Part shown: one piece after another, positions 20,913-53,198 of the stretch | How the letters are laid out: each line of letters starts with the position of its first letter | Numbering within the stretch: position 1 is the stretch's first letter | Origin: Bacteroidota bacterium | GTDB lineage: Bacteria > Bacteroidota > Ignavibacteria > Kryptoniales > JAKASW01 | Length of the DNA stretch: 64,000 bases | Direction of reading: 5' to 3' | Assembly (NCBI GenBank): GCA_021825585.1 | Contig: JAKAGT010000018.1 | Span: forward strand, 5,106 to 69,105 | Made by a program: the position numbers and the translations under genes | Notes under the pieces: model-generated | The model's input: only the letters and a program-made list of their open reading frames with translations | Databases searched by the model: none | Told to the model about the DNA's origin: nothing

Positions 20913-21076
20913 TTGCTTAATAATCTGCAGCACTTTATCTTCATGATCGAGGTCCCACGGGTAACCTGGAATTCCGCCTCGGGATTTGAAACATGTATCG
21001 CTCACCCCATACGCTTCGCGGACCCTGAATTTTCTTGATTCTCTCAGTCAGTTCGATCTAGTGCCGGCATAACAAA

Positions 21077-30857: not shown

Positions 30858-32660
30858 ATGAATAGAAGGACATTACATACTTTCCATATACCTGTGCTGG
30901 GGCTGGCATTCTCAATCGACACTCCGCTGAAAGTGGCGAGGTTCGGTATCTCATCAGTCATTTCGGTTGTAGACGATGTGCTGATTGAGCAAATGCGGAA
31001 ATACCATTCTCAGCTCAACGGAGAATCATATGTACCAATCTCGGTTCGCGAGGATGATTACCGCGCGCGGCGAATCACCGCTTACCTGAATATGGTCGGT
31101 CGCCTTGTCGAGCGGCAGACAACCGCGCTGAGATTGCAGCCTTTTGAGGACGGGAGCGAAATAGTCAGGTTCTTTGAGATGCTTCCCGACCACTCACCCG
31201 CAAAGTCTCTCTACAGCAAGATGCTCAATACGTCAGATGGCAATGTACGCTCCTCGATCGAAAGCGAGCTGCGGTCGCTAATTGTTGCCGGTGACATCGA
31301 TGTGAATATCATGACCAAGGTAGATAGGTTACGCACCGGAAGGCAAGGTGGGGCGATTCCATCTGATTCATCGGACGCCGTTGCGGCAATGCGCGGTTTT
31401 GTCAGAAGCGATCTCAACTCATCTGTCGTCTTGTCTGCCGGGTTGAACCCGCGGCTGTTCGCATACATGGAGCAATGCCCGGAATTCTTACCGGGCACAG
31501 ACGGTGTCCCCCAGAAGAAAGTCATTTTGAAGGTAAGCGACTACCGCTCGGCCCGAATACAAGGGAAAATTCTCGCAAAGAAGGGCATATGGTGCTCTGA
31601 ATTTCGAGTGGAGTCAGGATTGAATTGCGGCGGCCACGCGTTTGCCACCGACGGATATCTCCTGGGTCCCATTCTCGAAGAATTCAATTCGAATCGAGCC
31701 TCCCTCGCCGCGGAGCTTCTTGATGATTACTCGGCGGCATTGCGCCGAAGAGGGGCCTGGCTGCGTGAGACTCCAATGGACTTTCTCTTGACAGTCCAGG
31801 GCGGGATCGGCACGTCTGCAGAAGATACCTTCCTTCGCGAATACTATAAGGTCGACGGAACCGGATGGGGATCCCCTTTTCTACTCGTGCCGGAGGTTAC
31901 AAACGTGGATGCGGAGACTCGCAACTTGCTTGCAGAGTCGCCGAGGGAGGCATATTACCTGAGCAACGCGTCCCCGCTCGGAGTTCTGTTCAACAATATC
32001 AGAAACACGACGAGTGAGAAAGAGTTGCGCCGCAGAGCCGATGAAGGCAAGCCAGGCTCCCCGTGTACAAAAAAATACCTTGCCACCAATACCGAGTTTA
32101 CTGAAGAACCAATTTGCACGGCATCCAACAGATACCAGGCGCTGAAGATCTCGGAGCTGAAGAAGCTTAAGCCGCCGTCCCAGGAACTGGACGAGGAAAT
32201 CGACAAAATAATCGAGAAGGCTTGCCTCTGTGAGGGATTATCATCGACCGCACCTCTCGGTGGAAACAAAGCGGCGAAAAACCGAAAACGCGCGGTCGCC
32301 ATATGCCCCGGGCCGAATCTCGCCTATTTCTCCCGGATTGCATCTCTGGAAGAGATGGTCGGACATATATACGGAAGGATGCAATTGCTGACAAACGCTC
32401 ATCGGCCCAACATGTTCATACAGGAACTCCGGTTGTATGTGGATTACTTGAAGAATGAGATCCGGAAGCGAATTGACTCGCCAAAGCAGAATGATCTCAA
32501 GTATCTCCAGAATTTCAAGGCGACGCTGCAGGAAGGGATCGAGTATTACAAGTCAATCATCCCGAGTGTGATTGAGGAAGTGGGTCACTACAGAGAAACC
32601 ATGCTGGAAGAGCTCCTTAAATGTCAGGAGGAATTGGCCGGCGTCCTCGTCACGATCTGA
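30858..32660 (+). CDS. Uncharacterised 600-residue protein with flavoprotein TIM-barrel features
   Basis: I do not know the family by name. The N-terminus (IPVLGLAFSIDTPLKVARFG) and the stretches VESGLNCGGHAF, TVQGGIGTSAED and DGTGWGSPFLLVPE resemble the FMN-binding barrel of nitronate-monooxygenase/2-nitropropane-dioxygenase enzymes. The C-terminal half carries spaced cysteines (GSPCTKKYL, EPICTASNRYQ, KACLCEGL, AICPGPNLAYF) that could bind a metal or cluster. It ends in helical segments. It stands alone between tRNA-Asn and HU, and no ribosome site is obvious. Enzymatic activity is inference. Confidence 0.7.
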   Translation: MNRRTLHTFHIPVLGLAFSIDTPLKVARFGISSVISVVDDVLIEQMRKYHSQLNGESYVPISVREDDYRARRITAYLNMVGRLVERQTTALRLQPFEDGSEIVRFFEMLPDHSPAKSLYSKMLNTSDGNVRSSIESELRSLIVAGDIDVNIMTKVDRLRTGRQGGAIPSDSSDAVAAMRGFVRSDLNSSVVLSAGLNPRLFAYMEQCPEFLPGTDGVPQKKVILKVSDYRSARIQGKILAKKGIWCSEFRVESGLNCGGHAFATDGYLLGPILEEFNSNRASLAAELLDDYSAALRRRGAWLRETPMDFLLTVQGGIGTSAEDTFLREYYKVDGTGWGSPFLLVPEVTNVDAETRNLLAESPREAYYLSNASPLGVLFNNIRNTTSEKELRRRADEGKPGSPCTKKYLATNTEFTEEPICTASNRYQALKISELKKLKPPSQELDEEIDKIIEKACLCEGLSSTAPLGGNKAAKNRKRAVAICPGPNLAYFSRIASLEEMVGHIYGRMQLLTNAHRPNMFIQELRLYVDYLKNEIRKRIDSPKQNDLKYLQNFKATLQEGIEYYKSIIPSVIEEVGHYRETMLEELLKCQEELAGVLVTI

Positions 32661-34358: not shown

Positions 34359-35867
34359 ATGAAGACTACGACCATAACTCCCGAGGAACGCAAGAAAGCT
34401 CTGGCCTCGACTAAGAAACCGGAAGTCGTGGAAAGACAGAAATTGAACGTTCGTTACCACATCGAAGACATGGATGTAAACGATCGTCCGCGCCGTTTCC
34501 TTGAGGCATTCGCTGCAATACTCAAGCACTCCAATTACAGAATGGTCCTCGATTATTTCATCCGCATGACTGCAAGATGTTCGAGATGCGCGGTAGCCTG
34601 TCATATCTACCAGGCAACCGGCGATCCGAAGGACATCCCGTGTTACCGGTCCGGACTGCTTCTCGACGTGTACCGCCGCCACTTTACTCTTGGAGGCATG
34701 ATCAGGGGACGGATCACCGGAAACGGATACCTGACGGATGAGAAGATAGAAGAGATGGCTGATAGCTTCTACAACTGCACCGCGTGCAGGAGATGCGCTC
34801 TGGAGTGTCCACTCGGATTGGACCACGGCCTTATCACCCATCTTGGCCGTTACATACTGAGTGAAATAGGTATTGCCCCGAAAGCCCTGGTTGTGAGCGT
34901 GCGGGCACAGTTAGAAGGCCCGTACCACAACACTTCCGCAGTGCCGGTTCCGGCGTTGAAAGATACACTCGAATTTCTCGAAGACGACATGTTCGAGGAA
35001 AAATCGGTGAAAATAACATTTCCGACGGACGTTGAAGGGAGCGATTATGTCTTCTTCGCCCCTGTCAGCGATTACCTGATGGAGGCGGATACTCTTATGG
35101 GCATCGCGTCGGTCTTTGCCGCGACCGGGGATTCATGGACCATCGGGACAGAAGATTTCGACGCTATTAACTACGGCCTTTTCTATAATGACAGGATCAT
35201 GGAGAGGGTCATCAAGAAGCTCGACAGCGAAACGAGGAGACTTAACGGAAAGCAGGTCCTGATTGGTGAGTGCGGCCACGCTTCACGGACGGCGAAGAAC
35301 TTCCTCCCCACGTTTTGCGGAGGCAGCGAAGCGTTACCGGTAGTGAACATCCTCGAGTATACTCACAGAGTGTGGAAGGAAGGGAAACTGAAGCTTAACC
35401 CGGACATCGTTACCGAGAAGGTTGCGTACCACGATCCGTGTAACCTCGCCAGGAACCGGTGGATCGTTGATCAGCCGCGCGAAGTGTTGAAGTCGTTCTG
35501 CAGGAATTACGTGGAGATGACGCCGAAAGGTGAAGATAACATTTGCTGTGGCGGCGGAGGCGGGACGGTCTCAATCGATGAGATACGGCCCTATAGGACG
35601 ACAATCGGTGGAAAACTGAAGGCCGAGCAAATCAGGAAATCCGGATGCGAAATCCTTGTGGCGCCTTGCGCGAACTGCAAGAAGCAGCTCAGGGAACTTG
35701 TCGAAGACCAGAGGCTGAATTGCCGCGTCGTTGGGTTCCACGACCTGATCTACAAAGCGATCGAATTCGATGATTCACTCAAAGTGAAACAGGAAGAGGG
35801 AGTAAATGTCGATCATGGCAAGGACGGCCCGGTGCCCGGCGGGTCTTCGGACGGGAAGGGGAAGTAG
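34359..35867 (+). CDS. HdrD/DsrK/HmcF-like iron-sulfur protein
   Basis: 502 residues. Two 4Fe-4S sites near the N-terminus: C74xxC77xxxC81 with C95, and C140xxC143xxC146xxxC150. Two CCG domains follow (GECGHASR near residue 306 and ICCGGGGG ... CANCKKQL near residues 395-447), which hold the noncubane catalytic cluster in HdrB/HdrD. It is a paralogue of the DsrK encoded downstream; both share the segment following the first cluster (GDPKxxP). Expected on the cytoplasmic side, joined to the cytochrome b encoded two bases later. In Hmc and Tmc complexes this subunit links the membrane to cytoplasmic thiol/disulfide or sulfite reduction. No signal peptide. Confidence 0.9.
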   Translation: MKTTTITPEERKKALASTKKPEVVERQKLNVRYHIEDMDVNDRPRRFLEAFAAILKHSNYRMVLDYFIRMTARCSRCAVACHIYQATGDPKDIPCYRSGLLLDVYRRHFTLGGMIRGRITGNGYLTDEKIEEMADSFYNCTACRRCALECPLGLDHGLITHLGRYILSEIGIAPKALVVSVRAQLEGPYHNTSAVPVPALKDTLEFLEDDMFEEKSVKITFPTDVEGSDYVFFAPVSDYLMEADTLMGIASVFAATGDSWTIGTEDFDAINYGLFYNDRIMERVIKKLDSETRRLNGKQVLIGECGHASRTAKNFLPTFCGGSEALPVVNILEYTHRVWKEGKLKLNPDIVTEKVAYHDPCNLARNRWIVDQPREVLKSFCRNYVEMTPKGEDNICCGGGGGTVSIDEIRPYRTTIGGKLKAEQIRKSGCEILVAPCANCKKQLRELVEDQRLNCRVVGFHDLIYKAIEFDDSLKVKQEEGVNVDHGKDGPVPGGSSDGKGK

Positions 35868-35869
35868 GC

Positions 35870-36565
35870 ATGGAGTCTTTATTGAGTTTTGCCCGCGGTC
35901 CTCTCTTTCGTCTCTGTTTCATGATAATGCTCCTGGGACTTGCACGTTTATTGTTTCTGGATTTATGGGAGGCATATAGGGCCTATCGAAAAGCCGGCGA
36001 CAAGAAGATGCCGTGGAGATTGATTGTGCGCCGCAGCCTTGAATGGGCTGTCCCCGTGAAGAGAGTCTCGCGTAACCCGCAGCTCTATTACATCGTCTCC
36101 ATATTGTTTCATATCGGGTTGATAGTTGTGCCGGTGTTTCTGTTTGCCCATATCAATCTCTGGAAAAGTTCGATTGGTATCTCATGGCCCGCGCTTCCGT
36201 TCCAGTGGGCCCTTTGGCTGACCATAAGCACGATTGTCTTTGCTGCCGTCTTGCTGATCGAGCGCTTGTCTGTAAAAGCGATACATTTACTGAGCCGCGG
36301 CCAGGACTATTTCTGGCTTATCCTCCTTCTCTTTCCTTTCGTAACGGGATTCGTCTGCGCGAACATAAGAATCAGTGCCGGATTGTACGAGTTCCTGATG
36401 GCTGTACACGTGCTGTCGGGTGATTTGATATTTCTCCTGATACCGTTCACGAAAATAGCGCACTGTGTGCTCGCACCGTTTTCCCAGGTCATCGATGCGC
36501 TGGCGTGGAAATTTCCCCCGGCGACGGACCAGGACATTTTGGAAACTCTAGACAGATTCAAATGA
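35870..36565 (+). CDS. NarI-like membrane cytochrome b subunit (HmcE/TmcC type)
   Basis: 231 residues with about five to six membrane helices. Several His lie in helices (LFHIGLIV, MAVHVLSGDL, KIAHCVLAP) as expected for haem b ligands of the nitrate-reductase-gamma/DsrM family. It would carry electrons between quinone and the HdrD-like subunit encoded just upstream. Together the two resemble HdrDE, and QmoC, which is an HdrC-HdrE fusion, has the same membrane part. Confidence 0.85.
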   Translation: MESLLSFARGPLFRLCFMIMLLGLARLLFLDLWEAYRAYRKAGDKKMPWRLIVRRSLEWAVPVKRVSRNPQLYYIVSILFHIGLIVVPVFLFAHINLWKSSIGISWPALPFQWALWLTISTIVFAAVLLIERLSVKAIHLLSRGQDYFWLILLLFPFVTGFVCANIRISAGLYEFLMAVHVLSGDLIFLLIPFTKIAHCVLAPFSQVIDALAWKFPPATDQDILETLDRFK

Positions 36566-36655
36566 GAAAGTGTGCGAGATGGAGAGATATAAAAAGACGT
36601 TATTGGTGGTGACTGGTAGTCATTGGTTCTCACTAAGAAACATGAGGTGAACAGA

Positions 36656-37030
36656 ATGCCGAAGAAACTGGACGATTTGCAAGTGTATCAGCTTGCCATG
36701 GACATGGGAGAAAGGAACTGGGATGTGGTGGCGAGCTGGACCTATTTTGAAAAGGATACTATTGGCAAGCAGCTTACCAGAGCAGCGGATTCTGTGGCCG
36801 CAAACATAAGCGAAGGGTTCGGAAGATATTTTTGTAAGGAAAACGAGCAATTCTGTTATTACTCGAGAGGTTCGCTGTCGGAGACGAAGACCTGGCTGAA
36901 GAAATCATTCGACAGAAAGTTGATAGAAGAAAAAGCCTACCTGACTCTTGCAGATGACCTGAAACCCCTGGGTGTAAAACTAAACAATTACATAAAGTCC
37001 ATCGGCAAAACCACGAATCCCCACGAATGA
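36656..37030 (+). CDS. Four-helix-bundle protein (23S rRNA intervening-sequence type)
   Basis: 124 residues from ATG 36656 (AGGTGA upstream). It matches the small family first seen inside 23S rRNA insertions: DLQVYQLAMDMG, QLTRAADSVAANISEGFGR, FCYYSRGSLSETKTWL. Function unknown. These genes are often found alone at odd places. Here it interrupts the redox operon between the cytochrome b and the ferredoxin genes, flanked by short repetitive sequence, so it looks like an intruder and not a subunit. Confidence 0.88.
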   Translation: MPKKLDDLQVYQLAMDMGERNWDVVASWTYFEKDTIGKQLTRAADSVAANISEGFGRYFCKENEQFCYYSRGSLSETKTWLKKSFDRKLIEEKAYLTLADDLKPLGVKLNNYIKSIGKTTNPHE

Positions 37031-37144: not shown

Positions 37145-37915
37145 TTGAGCAAAGCAATCTTGACCGATGTCACTAAATGTATCGGCTGCCTGAAATGCGT
37201 AGAGGCATGCAAAGAGGTGAATCACCTGGAAGCGGACGTGCCGAGAGTCTGGGACAAGAACGACGGATTGTCCGCCGAAAACTGGACCTCGGTGATCCGC
37301 AAGCCCGGCGATCATTACGTCCGCAAACAATGTCGTCACTGTCTTGAACCGGCATGTGCGTCTGTGTGCCCGGTCGGCGCATTGCATAAAACTGAAATAG
37401 GCGCAGTAGTCTACGACAGCACCAAATGTCTCGGATGCCGATACTGCATGATGGCGTGTCCGTTCGGAATCCCGCGTTATGACTGGGACAAGGCCGTCCC
37501 GCACGTAGAAAAATGCATCCTGTGCTATGACAGGACTAAAATAGGAAAGCAGCCTGCTTGCACGGAGGCCTGTCCGGAGGGAGCGACAATATTCGGTGAT
37601 CGCGACGAGCTCCTCAAAGTGGCTCATAAGAGAATCAAAGAGAATCCGGGAAAATATATAGACAGGGTGTGGGGCGAGCATGAAGTCGGAGGGACTTCCG
37701 TTCTTTATCTCTCCGATATCGACCTCGATTTTCTCACATACCCGACGATACCCGGGGACAAGCCACTTCCAAAAGAAACTGTTGCTGCCATGGAATCGGT
37801 GCCGTTTGCGTTTGTCGGGATAGGCGGAGCGATGCTCGGACTAAACTGGATAATTCGTCGAAGGATGAAAATGGGCAAGGAACAGGCGAACAAGAAGGAA
37901 TCCGCCGATGAGTAG
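37145..37915 (+). CDS. Four-cluster ferredoxin-like subunit with C-terminal membrane anchor (HmcB-like)
   Basis: 256 residues. Four 4Fe-4S sites: CIGCLKCVEAC, CRHCLEPACASVC, CLGCRYCMMAC, and CILCYD with CTEAC. This is the HybA/HmcB/DsrO layout. A hydrophobic segment near residues 223-240 (VPFAFVGIGGAMLGLNWII) anchors the C-terminus. Unlike DsrO it has no Tat signal, so the side of the membrane is uncertain. Starts at TTG with GGGAGG five bases before it. It overlaps the NrfD gene by eight bases, its partner in the complex. Confidence 0.9.
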   Translation: MSKAILTDVTKCIGCLKCVEACKEVNHLEADVPRVWDKNDGLSAENWTSVIRKPGDHYVRKQCRHCLEPACASVCPVGALHKTEIGAVVYDSTKCLGCRYCMMACPFGIPRYDWDKAVPHVEKCILCYDRTKIGKQPACTEACPEGATIFGDRDELLKVAHKRIKENPGKYIDRVWGEHEVGGTSVLYLSDIDLDFLTYPTIPGDKPLPKETVAAMESVPFAFVGIGGAMLGLNWIIRRRMKMGKEQANKKESADE

Positions 37916-39779
37916 GGTTCAAAACACAAAACTGATACTGTGGCTTCTTACCGGTTTCGCAGCAGCTGTCGCGCTCAATAGGTACGTCTTCGGGTTGGGT
38001 GTCACGACCAATTTGAGTGACAAGACGCCGTGGGGCTTCTGGATAGGATTCGATGTGATGGCGGGAGTTGCTCTCGCTGCAGGCGGTTTCGTGACCACCG
38101 CGATCTTCTATATAATGAAGCGGGAAGAATTTCACCCGCTGGTGAAACCCGCGGTCCTGACGGCTTTCCTCGGCTACCTTGCAGTGGTGGCAGGTTTGTT
38201 GGTCGATCTCGGACTCCCATGGAATATCTGGCACATGATAATCTATTGGAATCCTCACTCGCCGCTGTTCGAAGTGGGTTGGTGCGTCATGCTTTACACG
38301 ACAGTGCTGCTCCTTGAGTTCAGTCCTGTTCCGTTGGAGAAGTCCAGCCGTTATGCGAAGATCAGAGATTTCCTCATGAAGTTTCGCTTCCCGCTTGTGT
38401 TGCTCGGCATCATGCTCTCCACATTGCACCAGTCGTCGCTCGGGACGCTGTTTCTGATAATGCGCTACAGGTTATATCCGTTGTGGTATTCGCATATTCT
38501 CCCGATCGAATTCTTCATTTCGGCTGTCGCGCTCGGCCTGATGATGGTTGCCTTCGAAAGCCTTGCATCGCACTGGCTGTACCGCCGTGAACCGGAGACG
38601 AGCCTCGTGTCCAGGCTTTGCGCAGCGGCGGCATGGGTTCTTGTTATATACTTTGTCGCTAAGATGACTGACATAATCGCATCGGGGAAGCTCGGCTTGA
38701 TATTCAACGGGAAATGGCAGAGCGACCTATTCATAGTGGAAGTTCTGGTGTCGACGATTATCCCTGCGGCGTTGTTCTTCGTCCCGAAATACCGGGGCAA
38801 CACCAGGGTTCAATGGATCGGTTCGTCGATGGTGGTGGTTGGAATGGTGCTCAACAGGATCGACGTCGGCGGTCTGGCGATGCTCGACTCTACAGCTTCC
38901 TACACGCCGTCCTGGATGGAAATTGCCATAAGTTTCGGAGTCGTCTCCGCAGCCGTACTGGTCTTTTTGTTTGCGATTGAGAACTTCCATATCTGGGAAA
39001 TACGCCCGGAGGATCCTGAGTCGTTGACGTATACACCGCCGTCATTTGATTACTCATCGCGTACATGGCTCGGTGTTCCCAGCATGGCGTCTCTGACGAA
39101 ACATACGCTGGCGTTCGTATTAAGCTTTGCTGTCGGTATGGCGCTTATGTCGGGAAAGCGATTACATGCGGAAGGAATCGACCAAATCACCGTGAGACCT
39201 GCGACTGCCGCCGATTCACTTTGCGATACGCTGTGCATAAACGGCAACCGGGACGATCAGTTCGTCGACTTCTCTCATGCTGGCCACATATCCAGAATCG
39301 GCAAGGACAGCTGCTGGGTCTGCCATCACCTGAGCCTTCCCGGTGAGAAGTTGAGCAGTTGCTGGGAGTGCCATACAAGCATGTACAGAGAAGCGGATTT
39401 CTTCAAACACGATTGGCACGCTTCCAGCGCCGGAGCTAATCTCAAGTGCGATGACTGCCACACACCTGGCGTAACGAGGACTGCGCAATCGGCGAAGAAA
39501 TGTACTGCCTGCCATCCGGCCTACAAGTTCGCTTCAGATGAAAAGGATGTGGCTCAGGAATACGACATACCTTCGTACGTGGATGCCATGCACAAGCTCT
39601 GCGTTTCCTGTCACACGGTTGAAGCCAGGCAAATGAAAGATAAGCCGAATCTTGCTCAATGCCCGACGTGCCACAGGGTCGGAACTCCTCCAGATCTACG
39701 GGCGGATATGAAGTGGGATGTCAGGTTGCCGCATTTCGACAACCTGATACTGCCGGACGTACGGCGAAACGGGAAGTGA
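37908..39779 (+). CDS. NrfD/HmcC-like quinone-interacting membrane protein fused to a hexahaem cytochrome c domain
   Basis: 623 residues. Residues 1-360 are an NrfD/HybB-type protein with about ten helices. An extra helix at 399-415 carries the chain across the membrane again. Residues 440-623 hold six CxxCH haem sites, at Cys 469, 485, 514, 532, 565 and 585, with further His for axial ligation. The domain should lie in the periplasm. In known Hmc, Nhc and Ohc complexes the cytochrome is a separate protein, so this fusion replaces HmcA. No frameshift is needed to read it. It ends the operon; a GTGATCG/CGATCAC hairpin (39776-39798) overlaps its stop. Confidence 0.93.
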   Translation: MSRVQNTKLILWLLTGFAAAVALNRYVFGLGVTTNLSDKTPWGFWIGFDVMAGVALAAGGFVTTAIFYIMKREEFHPLVKPAVLTAFLGYLAVVAGLLVDLGLPWNIWHMIIYWNPHSPLFEVGWCVMLYTTVLLLEFSPVPLEKSSRYAKIRDFLMKFRFPLVLLGIMLSTLHQSSLGTLFLIMRYRLYPLWYSHILPIEFFISAVALGLMMVAFESLASHWLYRREPETSLVSRLCAAAAWVLVIYFVAKMTDIIASGKLGLIFNGKWQSDLFIVEVLVSTIIPAALFFVPKYRGNTRVQWIGSSMVVVGMVLNRIDVGGLAMLDSTASYTPSWMEIAISFGVVSAAVLVFLFAIENFHIWEIRPEDPESLTYTPPSFDYSSRTWLGVPSMASLTKHTLAFVLSFAVGMALMSGKRLHAEGIDQITVRPATAADSLCDTLCINGNRDDQFVDFSHAGHISRIGKDSCWVCHHLSLPGEKLSSCWECHTSMYREADFFKHDWHASSAGANLKCDDCHTPGVTRTAQSAKKCTACHPAYKFASDEKDVAQEYDIPSYVDAMHKLCVSCHTVEARQMKDKPNLAQCPTCHRVGTPPDLRADMKWDVRLPHFDNLILPDVRRNGK

Positions 39780-40323: not shown

Positions 40324-41454
40324 ATGACGCTACAAGTGTCCATCGCCTCACGGGAAGTACGAACCGAACTGGTCTGTCCCTTCTGTCACAGTTCAAAGGT
40401 AGTAAGGCACGGAAAGACATCCGCTAATCACCTTCGCTACAGGTGTATATGCTGCAAGAGGACTTGGGTGAAGGACGCTCCGAATAAGGAACTCCCCGAT
40501 TTCGGAAAGCTTGCCGAATCGTATCTCGATGGATGTACATGCCGGGATCTCCGTGCCGTTTACCGCAGTTCTCCCATCAGGATCAATCAAAAAATCAGGG
40601 AATACCTCCTCGGATGCAGTTCATGGGAAGAGTATCTGGATGCCTGCACTCCGAAGCATGAATCACGCCTGATTCATCTCGTCGGAAAGAAATTCAAGGC
40701 CAGCGGAGGAAGCAGCGAAGGGCATTCGATGTATCTTGCTCTTGCGATAGATGCTCTCTCCACCGTTGTGCTCGGTTTCGAGATCGGTGAATGTGAATCG
40801 GAGAACTTATGGCTGACTTTGTTGGATAGAATGAACTGCAGGGGCTTCGTGTGTCCCACTTTTATGTCTTATGGGTATAAAGTGGTGGAAGATGCACTGA
40901 AGGTGGTTTTCCCTTATTCAGAGACTCTTCACAATTTCACCAGGACATGTTACGACAAGCATTTGAAAGATGAGCTTATTCGGTCGGTCGACACGAGAAA
41001 GCTGGTTCTGGAAGCAATAACTGCTCACATGAACGACGGTTCATGCAAGCTTGAAGACTATCTCGTTATATTCAAAGACAAGAGAATGAAACAGATCGTT
41101 CTCGATTCAAGAGAGTCGTTCATGAGACGGCTCCAGGAAAGAATCAGTCAGAGGTCGTGTATAAGGTTCGAAGGTTTGCTGGGGGCTTTTGAGAAGAGGT
41201 TCCAGAAATTCCATATGATAAAATACGATCCATATCCCATAATCAACGGATGGATTGCGTGGTGGATGCTCGAGCCGCTTCCGATCGGGTTCAGCAGGCT
41301 CGCCCTTTATCTCCAGCGCCCGTATGAAACTCACTTCAAAAACTTCAATTGCGGTACGCTGCCGAAGCCTTTAGATCTCTCCCTCGACAGTCCCGAAATG
41401 AAAACGTTCATCGTCGAACTTGCTGTGAGGTCGTTGCAGCTTCCTATAAAGTAA
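40324..41454 (+). CDS. Transposase-like zinc-ribbon protein, probably domesticated
   Basis: 376 residues. Residues 18-44 form a zinc ribbon (CPFC ... CICC) like those at the start of many transposases. The middle (MYLALAIDALSTVVLGFEIG ... ESENLWLTLLDRMNCRG) follows the RNase H-type fold of DDE transposases. The expected catalytic Asp residues appear replaced: HLVGKKFKA where lDGkxfk is usual, and MSYGYKVV where sDGxkxl is usual. No inverted repeats flank it. An intact frame without a catalytic triad suggests a DNA-binding protein kept for another use. The alignment is by eye. Confidence 0.7.
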   Translation: MTLQVSIASREVRTELVCPFCHSSKVVRHGKTSANHLRYRCICCKRTWVKDAPNKELPDFGKLAESYLDGCTCRDLRAVYRSSPIRINQKIREYLLGCSSWEEYLDACTPKHESRLIHLVGKKFKASGGSSEGHSMYLALAIDALSTVVLGFEIGECESENLWLTLLDRMNCRGFVCPTFMSYGYKVVEDALKVVFPYSETLHNFTRTCYDKHLKDELIRSVDTRKLVLEAITAHMNDGSCKLEDYLVIFKDKRMKQIVLDSRESFMRRLQERISQRSCIRFEGLLGAFEKRFQKFHMIKYDPYPIINGWIAWWMLEPLPIGFSRLALYLQRPYETHFKNFNCGTLPKPLDLSLDSPEMKTFIVELAVRSLQLPIK

Positions 41455-41705: not shown

Positions 41706-42914
41706 ATGCCTGAGAAAAAAAGGAAGACCCCGAAACTGGACGAGCTCGAAAAGGGCGCGTGGCCCAGTTTTGTCAAGGAGATAAAAACGGCGGCGGAGAA
41801 GAATGCCATGGCCGAGGATCTACTCGGTCAGCTCGAACGTTCATACGAGGAGAAGATCGGGCACTGGAAACATGGCGGCATAGTGGGAGTGCTAGGGTAT
41901 GGCGGCGGTGTGATCGGCAGATACTCCGATCTACCTGAGGAGTTTCCGAATGTCTCCCATTTCCACACGATGCGCATCAATCAACCCGCAGGTTGGTTCT
42001 ATACCTCCGACGTGCTGAGAAAGCTGTGCGATATCTGGGAGAAACACGGCTCTGGACTGACCAACGTGCACGGCTCGACTGGGGATCTGGTTTTTCTCGG
42101 GACAAGGACCGAAGAGCTTGAACCCACTTTCAAGGAATTGACCGATCTCGGTTTCGACCTCGGCGGTTCCGGTTCAGACGTGAGAACACCGAGCTGCTGC
42201 TGCGGCATGGCTCGATGCGAGTGGGCATGCTACGATACGATGGCTCTCACTTATTTCCTGACGATGCACTACCAGGATGAACTCCACAGGCCGGCTTTCC
42301 CGTACAAGTGGAAATTTAAAATGTCTGGCTGTCCTAACGATTGTGTCGCGGCCATTGCCCGCTCCGACATGTCAATTATCGGGACATGGAGAGACGACAT
42401 ACGGGTAGACAATGCCGCCGTGACGGAATACGCTAAGTCAGGCATGAACATCGAGCGGGACGTCGTCGGCAATTGTCCGGCCAAGTGCATGGAGTGGGAC
42501 GGGAAAGAAATCAAGATTGACAACAAAGCGTGCGTGAAATGCATGCATTGTATAAACGCCATGCCTAAGGCCTTGGCTCCCGGCAAGGACCGCGGAGCTT
42601 GCATCCTGATCGGTGCGAAAGCACCAATAGTCGAAGGCGCGCTCCTTTCTTCCGTCCTGATACCTTTCATCAAGCTTGAGCCGCCGTACGCCGAGCTGAT
42701 CGACCTGGTCGACAGAATTCACGAAGTTTGGTCCGAGAACGGAAAGAATCGCGAAAGAGTGGGAGAATTCATCCAGAGAGTCGGGATGGGAAATTTCCTG
42801 GAAGCGATCGGTGTGGAACCGATTCCTGAAATGGTGGCGCATCCGAGAGAAAATCCTTACGTGTTCTACGAAGAGTTCTTCGAAGAAGAATCTGAAGAAA
42901 ATCCTAAACCCTAA
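41706..42914 (+). CDS. dsrA: Dissimilatory sulfite reductase subunit alpha
   Basis: Catalytic half of the cytoplasmic DsrAB that reduces sulfite with DsrC. 402 residues. The sirohaem-4Fe-4S ligands are C165xxxxxC171 and C209xxxC213 ([10 protein letters not shown]). A ferredoxin domain has C257, C276, C279 and C282. AAAGGAG precedes the ATG. The last three residues (PKP) and the stop come from the inverted-repeat element that fills the dsrA-dsrB gap, so the C-terminus may have been trimmed slightly. Separation of dsrA and dsrB by 137 bases is wider than usual. Confidence 0.97.
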
Positions 42915-43051: not shown

Positions 43052-44140
43052 ATGCCGGAAGTTCAACCGAAACAGCAAAGAAAAACAGACATCGGTCCAC
43101 CGCATTACGAAAAATTCTTGCCGCCGATTATAAAAGAAAACTATGGCAGGTGGAAATATCACGAAATACTGAAACCCGGAGTTATGGTCACTGTCTCGGA
43201 GAGCGGTGCAAGGCTTTACACTGTCAGGGCGGCTTCACCGAGGCTTCTGGCCATCGACAAGATACGGGCCTACGCGGATTTGGCCGACAAGTATTCCAAC
43301 GGATACCTGAGATTTACCAGCCGGAACAATGTGGAGTTCTTGTTGTCCGATGAGTCTAAGGTAGATCCGTTGATAGCCGAGCTTGGGGCGCTCGGCCACC
43401 CGGTCGGCGGAATGGCTAACTCGATTTCGAGTATAGTCCATACTCAGGGTTGGGTGCACTGCCATTCGGCAGCCACGGATGCGTCCGGGGTCGTGAAATC
43501 GGTGATGGATGAACTGGTCGATTACTTCACCGAGATGAAGCTCCCCGGCAAGCTGAGGATAGCGCTCGCATGCTGTCTGAACATGTGCGGTGCGGTGCAC
43601 TGTTCCGACATAGCGATACTCGGAATTCACAGGCGCCCGCCGAGAGTCGAAAGGGATAAACTGAAAGCGATGTGTGAAATTCCATCGGTGGTGTCGGCAT
43701 GTCCGACCGCCGCAGTCAGGCCGGCTACAATCGACGGTGTCCCTTCAGTAGAGGTAATCGAAGAGCGGTGCATGTTCTGCGCGAACTGCTATACGGTCTG
43801 CCCGGCGATGAAGTTGAATGATCCGTTGAATGACGGGGTATCGATCTGGGTCGGCGGCAAAGTGTCCAACGCGAGAACCGAACCGATGTTTTCCAAGTTG
43901 GCTATACCGTTCCTTCCGAATAACCCGCCGAGGTGGCCGGAAGTTACGGAGGCGGTGAGGAACCTCGTCGAGGTGTGGGCGAAGAACGCGAGGAAGTATG
44001 AGAGGATGGGTGAATGGATCAACCGCATCGGCTGGCCGAGATTCTTCGAACTGACGGGAATCCCGTTCCAGAAGGAACATATCGATGACTTCAAGCACGC
44101 GGGATTGACGTTCAAACGATCTGTGCATTTGACACATTAA
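43052..44140 (+). CDS. dsrB: Dissimilatory sulfite reductase subunit beta
   Basis: Beta half of DsrAB, 362 residues, carrying the catalytically active sirohaem site in the known enzyme. Typical stretches are [28 protein letters not shown] and the ferredoxin cysteines in [19 protein letters not shown] eight bases before the ATG sits just outside the repeat element. dsrD follows after 11 bases. Confidence 0.97.
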
Positions 44141-44151
44141 AGGAGACTGTC

Positions 44152-44400
44152 ATGGCTGAGCAAGCAAGCGTTCAAGAAGTCGCTGACGCAATGTATAAGA
44201 TGATCAAGGACAGCATGGGTCAGAAGAAGTGGAAAGCCACCGATCTGACTAAGGCGGTGAACGAGTTGTTCGGCGAAAGATGCGACAAGAACATCGCAAA
44301 GTCTGCAATCAGGGACCTGATTGAAAGCGGAAAGTGCGTCTACACTTATTTCGGCGGAAGTTTCATTGAGATTCCGCACAAAGAAGGCGCCGAAAACTAA
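44152..44400 (+). CDS. dsrD: DsrD, winged-helix activator of DsrAB
   Basis: 82 residues with the DsrD pattern (MIKDSMGQKKWKATDLTKAV, CDKNIAKSAIRDLI, TYFGGSFIEIP). DsrD is found mainly in organisms that reduce sulfite and is reported to stimulate DsrAB. Its presence is the main sign here for the reductive direction. AAGGAG precedes the ATG. The stop codon touches the second inverted-repeat element. Confidence 0.93.
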   Translation: MAEQASVQEVADAMYKMIKDSMGQKKWKATDLTKAVNELFGERCDKNIAKSAIRDLIESGKCVYTYFGGSFIEIPHKEGAEN

Positions 44401-46166: not shown

Positions 46167-47852
46167 ATGGCAAAAATAGTAAAGAAAGTATCGAAGCCCT
46201 TAGGAAGTCTGAGATCGCAATCGGCTGGCGGCTCATCTCTTGAGACTTCGTCCTTGCGTCCGGTGCAGGTCCTTAAGACTCCTCCATGCTCTAACGGCTG
46301 TCCGAATGGAACAAACATAAGAGAGTTTCTGACAGTCATAAGTCAGTCGGAAGAATCCGGACTGACCTATCCGGAAGCGTTCCAGAAGGCGTGGGAAATC
46401 CTCACGGAGAAGAATCCGCTTCCGGCTGTATGCGGAAGAGTTTGCCCGCATCCCTGTGAGGACGAGTGTAACAGAGGTCACAAGGATGGTGCGGTCAGCG
46501 TCAACAGCCTCGAACGATTTATCGGCGATTATGCGCTCGAAAATGGCTTCAAGCTTCATCGGACTTCTGAAGCTGCCTACCCGCAGAAGGTAGCCGTAAT
46601 AGGAGCGGGTCCGGCGGGTTTATCTTGCGCTTACCAACTCGCGAGAAGAGGTTACGAAGTAACCATCTACGAGGCGTTCAGTAAGCCCGGTGGGATGCTG
46701 AGGTACGGGATACCTGACTACAGGCTCCCTGCCAGCGTGCTTGACAAGGAGATCAAGAGGATCGAAGACCTTGGAGTCAACATCAAATGCAATCAGAGCG
46801 TGGGACGTGACATACCCTATGATGAATTGCGGAAGAATTACGACGCAATATTTGTAGGGATAGGAGCGCACAAGGGGAGGTTACTCGGCGTTCCAAACGA
46901 GGAGGCCGGGAACGTCTTCACGGGAACTGAATTCCTGAATAGGGTGAACTCAGGCGAGGCTGTAGACGTAGGAAACAAAGTCCTAGTGGTCGGGGCGGGT
47001 GACACTGCAATTGATGCAGCGCGCGTGTCGCGGCGTTTGGGTGCCGATGTGACCATAGTTTACCGGCGGACGAGAAATGAAATGCCTGCGATCAAGGAAG
47101 AGATTGCAGGTGCGGAGGAAGAAGGTGTCAGGCTGGAATTCCTGGCCGCTCCCGTGGATTTCGACAGAAGCGGCGACAGGGTGACAAGGATGAAATGCCA
47201 GAGGATGGAACTCGGTGAACCCGACGAATCGGGCAGAAGAAAACCTGTTCCAATACCGGATTCGTATTTCTTCCTCGACTGCAGTACGGTTATCGCCGCG
47301 ATAAGCCAGGAGCCGGATTTTACGGGCCTCGATATTCTCCATGAAGGGAAGGACTGGATCAAAGCGGACAATAGCGGCACGACAAGGATTCCCGACACTT
47401 ATGCCGGTGGTGATGACCTGGAACTCGGACTTGTCACGATAGCAATATTCAACGGGAGAAGAGCGGCGGAGACGATCCATAACAGGTTTCAGAACATTCC
47501 GGCGGGACCTGAACAGAAGCCGCCGGTTATCACGCACGACAAAATCATGCTGAGTTACTACGAGAGCAAGCTGAGAAATGAGCCGTTCAGTCTCCCGGCG
47601 GAAGAACGGCTGAAAGACCTGGACCGCGAGATCACCTCCACGCTGACACAAGAGCAGGCAATCGACGAGGCAAAGAGATGCATGAGCTGCGGCTCCTGTT
47701 TCGACTGCGGGACATGCTGGAGTTATTGTCAGGATCAGGTGATAGTCAAGCCGCTCGCAAGGCACGGTACATACAAATTCAAGCTGGACTTCTGCATCGG
47801 TTGCAAGAAATGCGCGGAAAACTGTCCGTGCGGATACATCGAGATGAAATAG
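46167..47852 (+). CDS. dsrL: DsrL, NAD(P)H:acceptor iron-sulfur flavoprotein
   Basis: 561 residues related to the small subunit of glutamate synthase. N-terminal cluster domain (PPCSNGCPNG, CGRVCPHPCEDECNRG), FAD motif VIGAGPAGLSCAYQLA near residue 142, NAD(P)H motif VVGAGDTAIDAARVSRRLG near 272, and a C-terminal extension with cysteine clusters (CMSCGSCFDCGTCWSYC; CIGCKKCAENCPCG). The ferredoxin-like tail matches the longer DsrL forms. It likely connects NAD(P)H with DsrAB. In sulfur oxidisers it works the other way. Confidence 0.93.
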   Translation: MAKIVKKVSKPLGSLRSQSAGGSSLETSSLRPVQVLKTPPCSNGCPNGTNIREFLTVISQSEESGLTYPEAFQKAWEILTEKNPLPAVCGRVCPHPCEDECNRGHKDGAVSVNSLERFIGDYALENGFKLHRTSEAAYPQKVAVIGAGPAGLSCAYQLARRGYEVTIYEAFSKPGGMLRYGIPDYRLPASVLDKEIKRIEDLGVNIKCNQSVGRDIPYDELRKNYDAIFVGIGAHKGRLLGVPNEEAGNVFTGTEFLNRVNSGEAVDVGNKVLVVGAGDTAIDAARVSRRLGADVTIVYRRTRNEMPAIKEEIAGAEEEGVRLEFLAAPVDFDRSGDRVTRMKCQRMELGEPDESGRRKPVPIPDSYFFLDCSTVIAAISQEPDFTGLDILHEGKDWIKADNSGTTRIPDTYAGGDDLELGLVTIAIFNGRRAAETIHNRFQNIPAGPEQKPPVITHDKIMLSYYESKLRNEPFSLPAEERLKDLDREITSTLTQEQAIDEAKRCMSCGSCFDCGTCWSYCQDQVIVKPLARHGTYKFKLDFCIGCKKCAENCPCGYIEMK

Positions 47853-48023: not shown

Positions 48024-48341
48024 ATGCCGACATTTGAATATGAAAACGTGAAGATCGAAGTCGACGAAGACGGCTTCATGGAGAAGCCGGAAGAATGGAG
48101 CGAAGACGTAGCGAAGGCACTCGCCATGACCGAAGATGTTAAAGAGATGACCGATGCACACTGGAAGATCGTCTACTATCTGCGCGACTATTACAAGAAA
48201 TACGGAATCGCTCCAATGATCCGGAAGGTCTGCAAGGAAACGGGCTTCTCGCTGAAGGAGATCTACGACCTGTATCCCTCGGGTCCTGCAAAGGGAGCCT
48301 GCAAAGTGGCGGGTCTCGCAAAGCCGACCGGTTGCGTATAG
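48024..48341 (+). CDS. dsrC: DsrC, sulfur-carrier co-substrate of sulfite reductase
   Basis: 105 residues. Both functional cysteines of true DsrC are in the C-terminal arm: C93 (KGACKVAG) and penultimate C104 (PTGCV). They carry the sulfite-derived sulfur as a trisulfide. TusE-like relatives lack C93. The trisulfide is then reduced by DsrMKJOP encoded downstream. AAGGAACGAG precedes the ATG. Confidence 0.96.
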   Translation: MPTFEYENVKIEVDEDGFMEKPEEWSEDVAKALAMTEDVKEMTDAHWKIVYYLRDYYKKYGIAPMIRKVCKETGFSLKEIYDLYPSGPAKGACKVAGLAKPTGCV

Positions 48342-49115: not shown

Positions 49116-50108
49116 ATGAATGTTATTTTCTCGCTCTTTGCAATCCTCATAATAATAGCAGCCGCTTTTCTGGGCGCGAGTGTGCCGCGGCTGGATTTCC
49201 TGTTCGGGGTTGCCATTCCGTATGCGGCCATAACTATCTTCCTGGGCGGCATAATCTATCGAGTCGTCAAATGGTCGACCTCACCGGTACCCTTCCATAT
49301 CCCAACGGTCGCCGGTCAACAGAAATCTCTTCCGTGGATCAAAGACAGCCCGCTGGAGAGCCCTCACAATACATGGGGTGTCATCGGTAGAATGGCGCTC
49401 GAGGTTCTGTTCTTCAGATCGCTGTTCAGGAATACGAAGATGGAAATGAAGAACGGGCCAAAATTGACCTACGGCAGCAGCAAGTATTTGTGGCTTGGTG
49501 CCATCGTATTCCATTGGTCGATGCTGATTATCATTCTGAGGCATCTGCGACTGTTCATGCAGCCTATTCCTGCTTTTGTGCTGGGAGTGGACGGCATTGA
49601 CGGTTTCTTCCAGGTGGGTTTGCCCGGCCTCTACGTCACGGATGTTTTAATCTTGAGCGCGCTGACTTTCTTGATTTTGAGGCGCCTTACTGTTCCCAGG
49701 CTCAGGTACATATCTCTCTCGTCGGATTACTTCCCCCTTTTCCTGATCTTCAGTATAGCTGCCACCGGCATTCTGATGCGGTACTTTTTTAGAATCGACC
49801 TGGTGAACGCGAAGGAGCTTGCGGTCGGGTTGTTCTCGTTTCATCCCGTAGTCCCACAAGGGATCGGGGTCTTGTTTTATGTGCATCTGTTTCTCGTCAG
49901 CACGCTCCTTGTGTATTTCCCGTTCAGCAAGCTGCTACACATGCCGGGGATATTCCTCTCGCCGACGCGAAACCTGGCGAACAACAGCCGCATGAAGAGG
50001 CACGTCAACCCATGGAATCATCCTGTGAGAGTTCACACGTATGAAGAATACGAAGACGAATACAGAGAGAAGATGAAAGAAGCGGGATTACCCTTGGATA
50101 AGGAATGA
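49116..50108 (+). CDS. dsrM: DsrM, membrane cytochrome b of DsrMKJOP
   Basis: 330 residues with about six membrane helices. NarI-like, with helix His (FHWSMLIIILRHLR; FYVHLFLVSTLLVYFPFSKLLHMPG) expected to bind haem b. It takes electrons from menaquinol and hands them to DsrK, whose gene overlaps its stop by four bases. Confidence 0.94.
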   Translation: MNVIFSLFAILIIIAAAFLGASVPRLDFLFGVAIPYAAITIFLGGIIYRVVKWSTSPVPFHIPTVAGQQKSLPWIKDSPLESPHNTWGVIGRMALEVLFFRSLFRNTKMEMKNGPKLTYGSSKYLWLGAIVFHWSMLIIILRHLRLFMQPIPAFVLGVDGIDGFFQVGLPGLYVTDVLILSALTFLILRRLTVPRLRYISLSSDYFPLFLIFSIAATGILMRYFFRIDLVNAKELAVGLFSFHPVVPQGIGVLFYVHLFLVSTLLVYFPFSKLLHMPGIFLSPTRNLANNSRMKRHVNPWNHPVRVHTYEEYEDEYREKMKEAGLPLDKE

Positions 50109-51733
50109 AAATGGCCGGACCAAAATTAAAACCCGAAGAGTTAGCCAGCAAGATCAAGTACAGCCTTCCCCCGAAAGGCTGGATGGATCAGCCTGTGGAA
50201 TTCAAAGAGGGGACATTCAGCTATAGCGGGAATCCGAAGAACATCGAGTATATGGATCTGCCGAATCCAAGAAAGTGGCAGCCGACCGACCCGGACTGGA
50301 AGCTCCCTGAGAACTGGAAGGAAATCATACTTGAAGGACTCAAGGACAGGCTGCACAGGTTCCGTTCTCTGCAGATTTTCATGGACATTTGCGTCCGGTG
50401 CGGAGCATGCGCCGACAAATGTCATTTCTTTATCGGCTCAGGAGATCCGAAGAACATGCCTGTAATGAGAGCCGAGCTCCTTAGGGCGGTATATAGGAAT
50501 GACTTTGCACTTGCCGGCAAGATCTTCGGCAGGTTTGCGGGTGCGCGCGAACTGACGCTCGATGTAGTCAAAGAATGGTTTTATTACTTCTACCAGTGCA
50601 CACAGTGCCGACGCTGTTCGGTGTTCTGCCCATATGGTATAGACACGGCCGAGATAACGTTGCTTGTCCGCGAGCTGCTCAGTCTCGTCGGTGTCAATAT
50701 CGACTGGATCGTCACGCCCGTCGCAAACAGCTTCAGAACCGGTAATCATCTGGGCATTCAACCGCACGGTTTCAAGGACAGCATCGATTTCGCAGTCGAC
50801 GAGCTGGAGTCGATAACGGGTGTCAGAGTCGAGGCTCCAATCAACAAGAAAGGCGCGGAGATTCTCTTCATCACTCCTTCGGCAGATTACTTCGGAAGCC
50901 CTCATTATTATACTCTGCTCGGCTACCTCGCGTTGTTCCACGAAATAGGTTTGGATTACACCTGGAGCACATACGCATCTGAGGGTGGAAATTTCGGCTC
51001 CTTCATCTCGCACGATCTCATGAAGAGTCTAAATGCGAAAATGTATGCCGAGGCCAAGCGGCTCGGCGTCAAATGGATACTGGGCGGCGAATGCGGACAT
51101 ATGTGGAGAGTTGTGCACCAGTATATGAACACGCTGAACGGTCCCGCAGATTTCCTCGAAGAGCCCGTCTCTCCGATTACAGGTACCAGGTTTGAAAATG
51201 CGAGGTCGACCAAGATGGTGCATATATGCGAATTCACCGCCGATCTCATCAAGAACGGGAAGATCAGGCTGGATAAGGGCCGCAACGATAACCGGAGAGT
51301 TACTTTTCATGATTCCTGCAATCCAGCCAGAGCGCTTGGGCTGATCGAGGAGCCCCGTTACCTGATCAGGAACTCCTGCAACTATTTCTTCGAGATGCCT
51401 GAGAACACGATCAGGGAGCAGACATTCTGCTGCGGCAGCGGCGCCGGGCTCGGCACCGACGAGAACCTCGAAATGAGAATGAGAGGTGGTCTGCCCAGGG
51501 CAAATGCTGTTAAGTTCGTCAAGGAGGAGCACGGCGTCAATTTCCTCGGCTGTATTTGTGCGATCGACAAGGCGACACTGCCTCCCCTAATGGAATACTG
51601 GGTCGGCGGCGTGGAGGTCGGCGGCGTTCACGAACTCGTCGGCAATGCTCTGATAATGAATGGCGAAAAGGAAAGGACGACGGACCTTCGCGGAGAACCT
51701 TTTCATATCGAAGGAAACTGGAATGCACGATAG
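50105..51733 (+). CDS. dsrK: DsrK, cytoplasmic HdrD-like catalytic subunit
   Basis: 542 residues. 4Fe-4S sites at C96/C99/C102/C106 and at CTQCRRCSVFC (about residue 166). CCG domains follow (GECGHMWR; FCCGSGAGLG ... GCICAIDK) that bind the noncubane cluster thought to reduce the DsrC trisulfide. The first half of the second CCG motif is intact. It overlaps dsrM by four bases and dsrJ by eleven. Confidence 0.95.
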   Translation: MKMAGPKLKPEELASKIKYSLPPKGWMDQPVEFKEGTFSYSGNPKNIEYMDLPNPRKWQPTDPDWKLPENWKEIILEGLKDRLHRFRSLQIFMDICVRCGACADKCHFFIGSGDPKNMPVMRAELLRAVYRNDFALAGKIFGRFAGARELTLDVVKEWFYYFYQCTQCRRCSVFCPYGIDTAEITLLVRELLSLVGVNIDWIVTPVANSFRTGNHLGIQPHGFKDSIDFAVDELESITGVRVEAPINKKGAEILFITPSADYFGSPHYYTLLGYLALFHEIGLDYTWSTYASEGGNFGSFISHDLMKSLNAKMYAEAKRLGVKWILGGECGHMWRVVHQYMNTLNGPADFLEEPVSPITGTRFENARSTKMVHICEFTADLIKNGKIRLDKGRNDNRRVTFHDSCNPARALGLIEEPRYLIRNSCNYFFEMPENTIREQTFCCGSGAGLGTDENLEMRMRGGLPRANAVKFVKEEHGVNFLGCICAIDKATLPPLMEYWVGGVEVGGVHELVGNALIMNGEKERTTDLRGEPFHIEGNWNAR

Positions 51734-52265
51734 CGGTAAAATTATTGTCGGACTGGTGATTTTCGTAGGGTTGTTCACGGCTCCTTTCTGGTATGACCTC
51801 TCGAGCAGTGAAGCGTTGGAAACACCCAATCCGGTTCTCCCGGCGAAGCCGGATCAGAAGGAATGTGTGGCAAACCTGGAGTTCATGAGACGCAACCACA
51901 TGGCCCTGCTCGACCAATGGAGAACCGAAGTTGTCAGAGATGGGATGACTTACTTCAAGTCGGCTTCCGGAAAAGAATTCGAGATGAGATACACGAAGAC
52001 TTGCCTGGGCTGCCATCCGAACACTTCACAGTTCTGCGATCAGTGCCACAACTACGTCGGTATCAATCCTTATTGTTGGGATTGCCACAATAAACCAGAG
52101 TTAGGTGGGGTACAGTTAGATACGGCACAAATTCTAAATCCCAAGTCCGAAACTCTAAGTGAGCGCCTTGCGCCACCCCGCGCATCCTCTTCAAGTAATA
52201 TTGATCGGGACAGATTCAAATCACGAAGTTCAAATCGTCCAAGCTCTGGCTCAGGAGCTTTTTGA
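51723..52265 (+). CDS. dsrJ: DsrJ, trihaem periplasmic cytochrome c with an abnormal C-terminal tail
   Basis: 180 residues from ATG 51723. An uncleaved signal/anchor (KIIVGLVIFVGLFTAPFWY) leads to three haem sites at Cys 94, 105 and 118 (CLGCH, CDQCH, CWDCH), as in known DsrJ. Normal proteins end soon after the third site. Here about 45 more residues follow, from residue 136, low in complexity and rich in Ser, Arg and Pro. They are encoded by the inverted-repeat element at 52128, so insertion has removed the old stop. Confidence 0.93.
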   Translation: MHDSGKIIVGLVIFVGLFTAPFWYDLSSSEALETPNPVLPAKPDQKECVANLEFMRRNHMALLDQWRTEVVRDGMTYFKSASGKEFEMRYTKTCLGCHPNTSQFCDQCHNYVGINPYCWDCHNKPELGGVQLDTAQILNPKSETLSERLAPPRASSSSNIDRDRFKSRSSNRPSSGSGAF

Positions 52266-52334
52266 TGATTTCGGGCATTTGTCTTTTGGATTTGGGTTTT
52301 GTTTCGAGTTTAGTGTTTAGGATTTAGAGTTTGT
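52128..52334. repeat. AT-rich inverted-repeat element, copy 3 (dsrJ/dsrO)
   Basis: Left arm 52128-52159 (CAAATTCTAAATCCC, then GTCCGAAACTCTAAG) and right arm 52288-52334 (TTTGTTTCGAGTTT, GTTTAGGATTTAGAGTTTG) are approximate reverse complements. The left arm and part of the centre are read as the end of dsrJ. Same family as 42903, 44398 and 60641. Confidence 0.75.
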
Positions 52335-52381
52335 TCTATATTGCGCAAACCATGCTGTTTAAAGTCTAAGATTTCGGAATA

Positions 52382-53188
52382 ATGATGAGTATTAGTCGAA
52401 GGACACTTCTGAAGCTGGCCGGCCTTACGGTACTCGGCGTCACGGCAGAGAAATATGCAAGCGCCCACGCTGGCAGCACCACCGCAAAAGTTCTCGCCAA
52501 AGCCGTGAGCGCCGGGAAGCGGCTGACAAATAACAATGTGCAACAAAAAGTACGCCTGGCGATGGTGGTGGACCTGAGGAAGTGCGTTTCCGAGCAAGGG
52601 TGCACAAAATGTATAGATGCCTGCAACCAGGCTCACAACATACCGGACTTCGGCGACTCGAAGGATGCGATAAAATGGATCTGGGAAGAGCCTTATGAGA
52701 ATGCATTCCTCGACCAGGAAAACTTCTACATGAGGGATGAGTTCAAGAATAAGATGGTCCCTGTGTTCTGCAACAACTGTGACGAGCCGCCGTGCGTGGA
52801 GGTTTGCCCGACGCAGGCGACTTTCAAACGGGACGACGGGATCGTGATGATGGACTGGCACAGGTGCATAGGTTGCAGGTACTGCATGGCGGCCTGCCCG
52901 TATGGCTCGCGGAGTTTTAACTGGAGGGACCCAAGGCCATTCATCAAAAACATCAACCCGGATTATCCGACACGTATGAAAGGGGTTGTCGAGAAATGTA
53001 CCTGGTGCGATGAGAGAGTCGACCAGGGACTCCTCCCGCTTTGTGTGGAGGCTTGCCCGGAAAAAGCGATGGCCTTCGGAAACCTTAATGATCCTGACTC
53101 GGATGTGAGACAATTACTGAAGGACAATTTCTCAGTCAGACGAAAACCCGGTCTCGGAACAAGTCCGGAAATCTACTATCTGGTATAA
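52382..53188 (+). CDS. dsrO: DsrO, Tat-exported four-cluster ferredoxin
   Basis: 268 residues. A twin-arginine signal at residues 5-14 (SRRTLLKLAG) directs it to the periplasm. Cluster motifs: CVSEQGCTKCIDAC, CNNCDEPPCVEVC, CIGCRYCMAAC, CTWC with CVEAC. Works with DsrJ and DsrP on the periplasmic side. The start could be 52382 or the next codon. It is 116 bases after dsrJ because of the repeat element, while other members of the operon are tightly spaced. Confidence 0.95.
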   Translation: MMSISRRTLLKLAGLTVLGVTAEKYASAHAGSTTAKVLAKAVSAGKRLTNNNVQQKVRLAMVVDLRKCVSEQGCTKCIDACNQAHNIPDFGDSKDAIKWIWEEPYENAFLDQENFYMRDEFKNKMVPVFCNNCDEPPCVEVCPTQATFKRDDGIVMMDWHRCIGCRYCMAACPYGSRSFNWRDPRPFIKNINPDYPTRMKGVVEKCTWCDERVDQGLLPLCVEACPEKAMAFGNLNDPDSDVRQLLKDNFSVRRKPGLGTSPEIYYLV

Positions 53189-53198
53189 GGTAAATCAT

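Follow-up and report, generated by a model that had tools for sequence, protein, structure and literature searches.

One reading frame in the 64,000-nucleotide stretch of DNA analyzed here (the window) runs from a membrane protein of the NrfD type directly into a multihaem cytochrome c. This raises the questions of whether the fusion is real, to which class of respiratory complex it belongs, and what such a complex would do. The frame (37908-39779, +) starts with ATG, and its 623 codons are uninterrupted, so that the product (623 aa) combines an NrfD/HmcC-like quinone-site protein with a hexahaem cytochrome c.

The NrfD/HmcC-like domain (37908-39005, +; residues 1-366) has ten membrane helices and was delimited with Pfam, NCBIfam, and AlphaFold2. 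Specifically, Pfam assigns residues 34-318 to NrfD (59.9 bits, cut-off 25.8), and the top NCBIfam match is HmcC (298.5 bits, under the cut-off of 550). An eleventh, signal-peptide-like helix (39078-39146, +; residues 391-413), placed by alignment, AlphaFold2, and charge, leads from the inside to the outside and is followed by the class III-like cytochrome domain (39225-39779, +; residues 440-623), in which residues 499-589 match Cytochrom_CIII (46.8 bits, cut-off 22.9). The six CxxCH motifs start at C469, C485, C514, C532, C565, and C585. Their Cys and His are invariant across the homologues described below, save one first Cys at 98%, and six further His outside these motifs (H457, H460, H474, H501, H504, and H562) are 100% invariant. 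Since there are six extra invariant His beside six CxxCH, six bis-His haems are likely. The layout given in the earlier note (NrfD, an extra helix, and a domain with six CxxCH in a single frame) therefore stands, with its limits revised: the helix lies at about 391-413 rather than 399-415, and the haem domain starts at about residue 440.

The AlphaFold2 model, computed from an alignment of 45 sequences (mean pLDDT 73.5), contains ten long membrane helices, the eleventh at 391-413, a low-confidence linker (418-439), and then the haem domain, which is less confident. Its best fold matches in the PDB are the ActC subunits of alternative complex III (E 7e-9), and the solved sequences nearest to the haem domain are 16- and 9-haem Hmc-family cytochromes and cytochromes c3. 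With a Pfam score over the cut-off and the NrfD/ActC fold, the NrfD domain falls within the NrfD/PsrC family; its residues are conserved, and it may bind quinone and be electrogenic. The inner loops of the fusion hold 16 Lys/Arg and the outer loops 5; this distribution of positive charges favors a topology with the N-terminus inside and the cytochrome C-terminus outside. Together with the ten helices plus one of the model, it bears out the earlier expectation of about 11 helices and a periplasmic C-terminus.

A missed stop or a frameshift, introduced by assembly or annotation and named in the earlier note as a refutation, could in principle have joined two genes. However, a scan of one genome per species recovered 44 further full-length fusion ORFs in 43 loci (35-90% identity) with identical architecture; all carry six CxxCH apart from a single ORF with five, and the junction helix can be aligned across all 44. 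Because these ORFs come from separate assemblies and share the join, and because the 45 fused rows form one clade in the NrfD-domain tree (SH-aLRT 99, one change), we give the artefact explanation practically no credence and regard the fusion as real. The fused clade is old and, by the titles of the records, spans about ten phyla (Bacteroidota, Kryptoniota, Ignavibacteriota, Zixiibacteriota, Acidobacteriota, Calditrichota, Myxococcota, Bdellovibrionota, Chloroflexota, and Fibrobacterota). One locus (L020) carries, besides a normal fusion, a second, divergent NrfD-hexahaem fusion on a long branch (19816-21735, -; 639 aa, about 35% identity). The cytochromes of related unfused operons (L050, L053, and L060) gave no phmmer match to the hexahaem domain and so point to no donor for it.

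The fusion is the last gene of a four-gene operon, and about 30 loci share its gene order (K-like, TmcC-like, HmcB-like, fusion). The first gene (34359-35867, +) encodes a K-like, cytoplasmic subunit of the DsrK/TmcB/HmcF type (502 aa) with two 4Fe-4S motifs and one CCG (noncubane) site. It matches DsrK at 283 bits, TmcB at 206, and HmcF at 205, all under the NCBIfam cut-offs (750 for HmcF). Among 32 sequences, C305, C361, C396, C397, C437, and C440 are invariant, and the last five are the cluster-site cysteines of the DsrK/HdrD noncubane site. Given its genomic co-occurrence with DsrC, the K-like protein is predicted to be one that may reduce the DsrC trisulfide. The second gene (35870-36565, +; 231 aa) encodes a TmcC/HmcE-like di-haem cytochrome b of the NarI family (TmcC 123 bits; HmcE 110 bits, below the cut-off of 275) with four candidate haem ligands (H81, H94, H180, and H198); 34 of the 41 sequences compared have the full set. 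The third (37145-37915, +; 256 aa) encodes an HmcB-like 4x[4Fe-4S] subunit (251 bits, below the cut-off of 420) with a C-terminal tail helix. These matches, together with the HmcC-like NrfD part, agree with the earlier assignment of the complex to the Hmc/Tmc class. Between the second and third genes lies a four-helix protein of the 23S rRNA intervening-sequence type (36623-37030); it is shared only with L015 (91% identity) and, being confined to these two loci, is not part of the complex. Upon inspection of the sequences, response regulators and PAS-type sensors recur beside the operon in several phyla (L011, L016, L017, L019, L023, and others), which suggests dedicated two-component control.

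The Fe-S subunit bears on where quinone would react. Its 16 cluster Cys are kept at 98-100%, and Tyr100, which stands between two cluster cysteines, is present in 42 of 42 sequences; it corresponds in position to QrcC Tyr113, a residue described as a requirement for menaquinone reduction (PMC13059093). No export or Tat leader was found in about 40 fused-locus homologues, which begin about 10 residues ahead of the first CxxC, and the operon holds no Tat-bearing partner; both observations count against a periplasmic quinone module. Many unfused relatives of the subunit are also leaderless, and a case has been described in which a Tat-bearing hydrogenase is thought to carry a leaderless Fe-S subunit (PMC10924467). 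The DsrO encoded in the window, unlike this subunit, has a twin-arginine leader. We considered a cytoplasmic location, which explains the missing leader, but rejected it since it conflicts with the NrfD topology and with the quinone-site position of Tyr100.

The operon opens a sulfate-reduction island. The fusion is followed by an IS1-type protein, dsrA, dsrB, dsrD, dsrN, a dsrL-like gene, dsrC, dsrT, dsrMKJOP, qmoA, qmoB, sat, aprB, and aprA. Both dsrA (41706-42914, +; 582 bits) and dsrB (43052-44140, +; 507 bits) are over the NCBIfam cut-offs, and dsrC (48024-48341, +; 128 bits) encodes the proposed partner of the K-like subunit, a protein of 105 aa with a C-terminal C-X10-C. All five subunits of the canonical dsrMKJOP (49116-54356, +) score over curated cut-offs, and since this full set is also in the island, the fused complex is an addition to a complete DsrMKJOP. 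Upstream of the island, a 600-aa protein (30858-32660) has no Pfam match. In every one of the 9 dsr-linked loci, the IS1-type, transposase-like protein (40324-41454) separates dsrA from the fusion operon; its 68-81% identity across these loci and its invariant zinc-ribbon cysteines make it look fixed or domesticated rather than mobile. The island holds dsrD (44152-44400) together with the dsrL-like gene (46167-47852), a combination that has been called unusual (PMC6338057). NiFe-hydrogenase-type proteins and other multihaem cytochromes are encoded in the same genome.

The complex was compared with known systems. Our first idea, a DsrMKJOP in which DsrP is fused to DsrJ, was rejected because the true set lies 10 kb downstream and the NrfD part is not DsrP: the fused operon scores 33 bits against DsrP (cut-off 350) and 103 against DsrO (cut-off 200), with no DsrJ match. 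The general plan (K, M, J, O, and P) and the presumed DsrC partner are the same, whereas DsrJ has three haems (PMC6303296) and the fused domain six. The complex resembles Hmc (HmcABCDEF) of Desulfovibrio in its multihaem cytochrome, which is of class III type, and in having subunits like HmcB, HmcC, HmcE, and HmcF. However, the 16-haem HmcA is exported as a protein of its own and HmcB is Tat tail-anchored (PMC10924467; compare L086), whereas here six haems are fused to the HmcC-like subunit and the HmcB-like subunit has the tail helix without a leader. No HmcD gene was identified for the fused complex, nor does its operon hold a gene for a separate multihaem cytochrome. The TmcB/TmcC-like pair is shared with Tmc (TmcABCD), which has a separate TmcA cytochrome and no NrfD protein, unlike the fused complex; TmcA and TmcD were not found among the operon proteins scanned. 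Tmc has been predicted to reduce DsrC (PMC10553843). Finally, Qrc (QrcABCD) and alternative complex III share the ten-helix NrfD fold, an Fe-S partner, and a multihaem cytochrome, yet their B subunit is of the molybdopterin type, their cytochrome is a separate protein, and they lack a K/CCG arm. Judged from its sequences, the fused complex lacks defining features of Hmc, Tmc, and DsrMKJOP, yet it would work most like Hmc/Tmc.

We found that the distribution of the fusion is associated with that of the Dsr genes. Of the 13 genomes in the genus, the 7 with dsrA all carry the fusion and the 6 without dsrA all lack it; this co-occurrence is weak evidence, because the fusion and dsrAB are physically linked and may be hitchhiking. 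Outside the genus, dsrA is over the cut-off in 21 of 32 fusion genomes and in 0 of 48 relatives, and DsrC is present in 25 of the 32 fusion genomes. For the statistics, one genome (G083) was left out, as its K-like gene adjoins a nine-haem cytochrome in another context. Among the 31 other genomes, 24 encode a true K-like protein, at 56% identity or more, and all of these have DsrC, albeit only as a fragment in G090, whereas DsrC was absent from six of the seven without K (Fisher p 9.5e-6); these six are Myxococcota, and in the seventh, a Bryobacteraceae (L021), both DsrC and dsrA are present. Of the two phylogenetically independent K-loss pairs, DsrC differs in only one. Altogether, a fused complex that keeps the K arm nearly always goes with DsrC, the carrier of sulfite reduction.

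The loss of K is accompanied by a change in the cytochrome b. K was lost twice, independently, and both times the cytochrome b lost its ligand H198: all 22 scored rows with K retain this residue, and none of the 7 without K does. The seven exceptions to the four-ligand pattern are exactly the K-less loci (V/L/I-H-H-R in six, H-H-H-R in L021). Through a weak match, H180 and H198 align with positions 187 and 205 of NarI, whose outer ligand pair, 56 and 205, binds the haem on the cytoplasmic side. Since H198 aligns with NarI 205, the ligand lost with K would belong to the haem expected to face and feed K. With only two K-loss events, a paired sign test gives p 0.5, so the pattern has no significance once relatedness is removed; nevertheless, this joint loss is, at the level of sequence, our best evidence for an electron path through the cytochrome b to K.

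On balance, and with somewhat better than even confidence, we take the operon to encode an electron-transfer complex of Hmc/Tmc type that has four subunits, spans the membrane, and is dedicated here to the Dsr pathway, serving DsrC beside DsrMKJOP. For such a complex, we infer redox partners, direction, quinone chemistry, and energy coupling. Helix 11 would place the hexahaem domain in the periplasm, for electron exchange with donors there. As in Qrc, menaquinone would react on the periplasmic side, at a site built from the Fe-S subunit and the NrfD domain; in ActC, which has ten helices and both ends inside, the quinol site is at the periplasmic side (PMC8076601). From there, the di-haem cytochrome b would take electrons through the membrane and hand them to the K-like protein; the CCG cluster site of this protein would reduce (or, in reverse, oxidize) cytoplasmic DsrC. 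The likely path would thus run from a periplasmic donor through the hexahaem domain, the Fe-S/NrfD menaquinone site, the di-haem cytochrome b, and K to DsrC, alongside the canonical DsrMKJOP.

The six Myxococcota that keep the genes for the cytochrome b, the Fe-S subunit, and the fusion without K, DsrC, or dsrA would fit a different account, as would the strong conservation of the NrfD/Fe-S quinone module: the complex may serve, in the way of Qrc or Hmc, as a general periplasmic cytochrome:menaquinone oxidoreductase, for which K and DsrC are optional and the dsr linkage is incidental. We consider this unlikely, since K is found in the great majority of loci with invariant active-site cysteines, and since outside the genus about two thirds of the fusion genomes, but none of the relatives, have dsrA over the cut-off. 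Flow in the opposite direction, in which sulfur oxidation or disproportionation would send electrons from reduced DsrC to cytochromes in the periplasm, seems to us rather improbable. DsrL usually goes with oxidizers (PMC6338057), and the dsrL-like gene is consistent with such a reversal; against it, dsrD, which has been proposed to mark a reductive metabolism (PMC10564751), is directly 3' of dsrB, and sat, aprBA, and qmoAB are present, though oxidizers can carry these too. From dsrD and the sulfate-activation genes, the reductive direction would be expected for the preferred path to DsrC.

A further alternative concerns whether the two parts stay covalently linked, and it leaves the DsrC function intact. 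In several phyla, helix 11 resembles a former signal peptide, and signal peptidase may cut it after insertion to free a separate hexahaem cytochrome; the gene fusion would then be a mere co-translation of two subunits, as in the cytochrome b/c1 precursor FbcH of Bradyrhizobium. Consistent with this, the hydrophobic core of the helix is about 15-18 residues long and is often followed by Pro and small residues (e.g., LLPHSAFAG, LLPASALDG, or LIPERAWTAD), and some related unfused operons (L050, L053, and L060) have an exported cytochrome gene with its own leader directly 3' of NrfD. However, no single cleavage motif is conserved, Lys/Arg follow helix 11 in the window's own clade, and all 45 rows of the fused clade encode the NrfD and haem parts in one gene. 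A simple test for signal-peptidase sites did not discriminate, as internal NrfD helices score as high as helix 11. We lean against cleavage while regarding it as a real possibility. Since a fixed ratio of one cytochrome domain per quinone module requires an uncleaved helix 11, this part of the earlier interpretation is not established, whereas the Hmc/Tmc class and the outside C-terminus hold.

The open-access papers searched, including ones reviewing NrfD proteins and sulfate reducers, contain no description of an NrfD-multihaem fusion. Tentatively, and at a little short of even confidence, we propose a single-origin family of respiratory complexes, found in about ten phyla, in which a periplasmic hexahaem cytochrome would be covalently part of the quinone-reactive NrfD subunit and would feed DsrC, and which twice lost the K arm with the facing haem-b ligand to become a periplasm-side quinone module. 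The fused layout opens the cytochrome and the quinone site to joint study in one protein, and the natural loss of K together with one haem-b ligand makes it possible to dissect the path of the electrons by evolutionary comparison. For sulfate reducers outside Desulfobacterota, little is known of the route by which electrons from the periplasm arrive at DsrC, and the fused complex is a concrete candidate; if the proposal is true, sulfite reduction outside that phylum would have in it a major point of electron entry.
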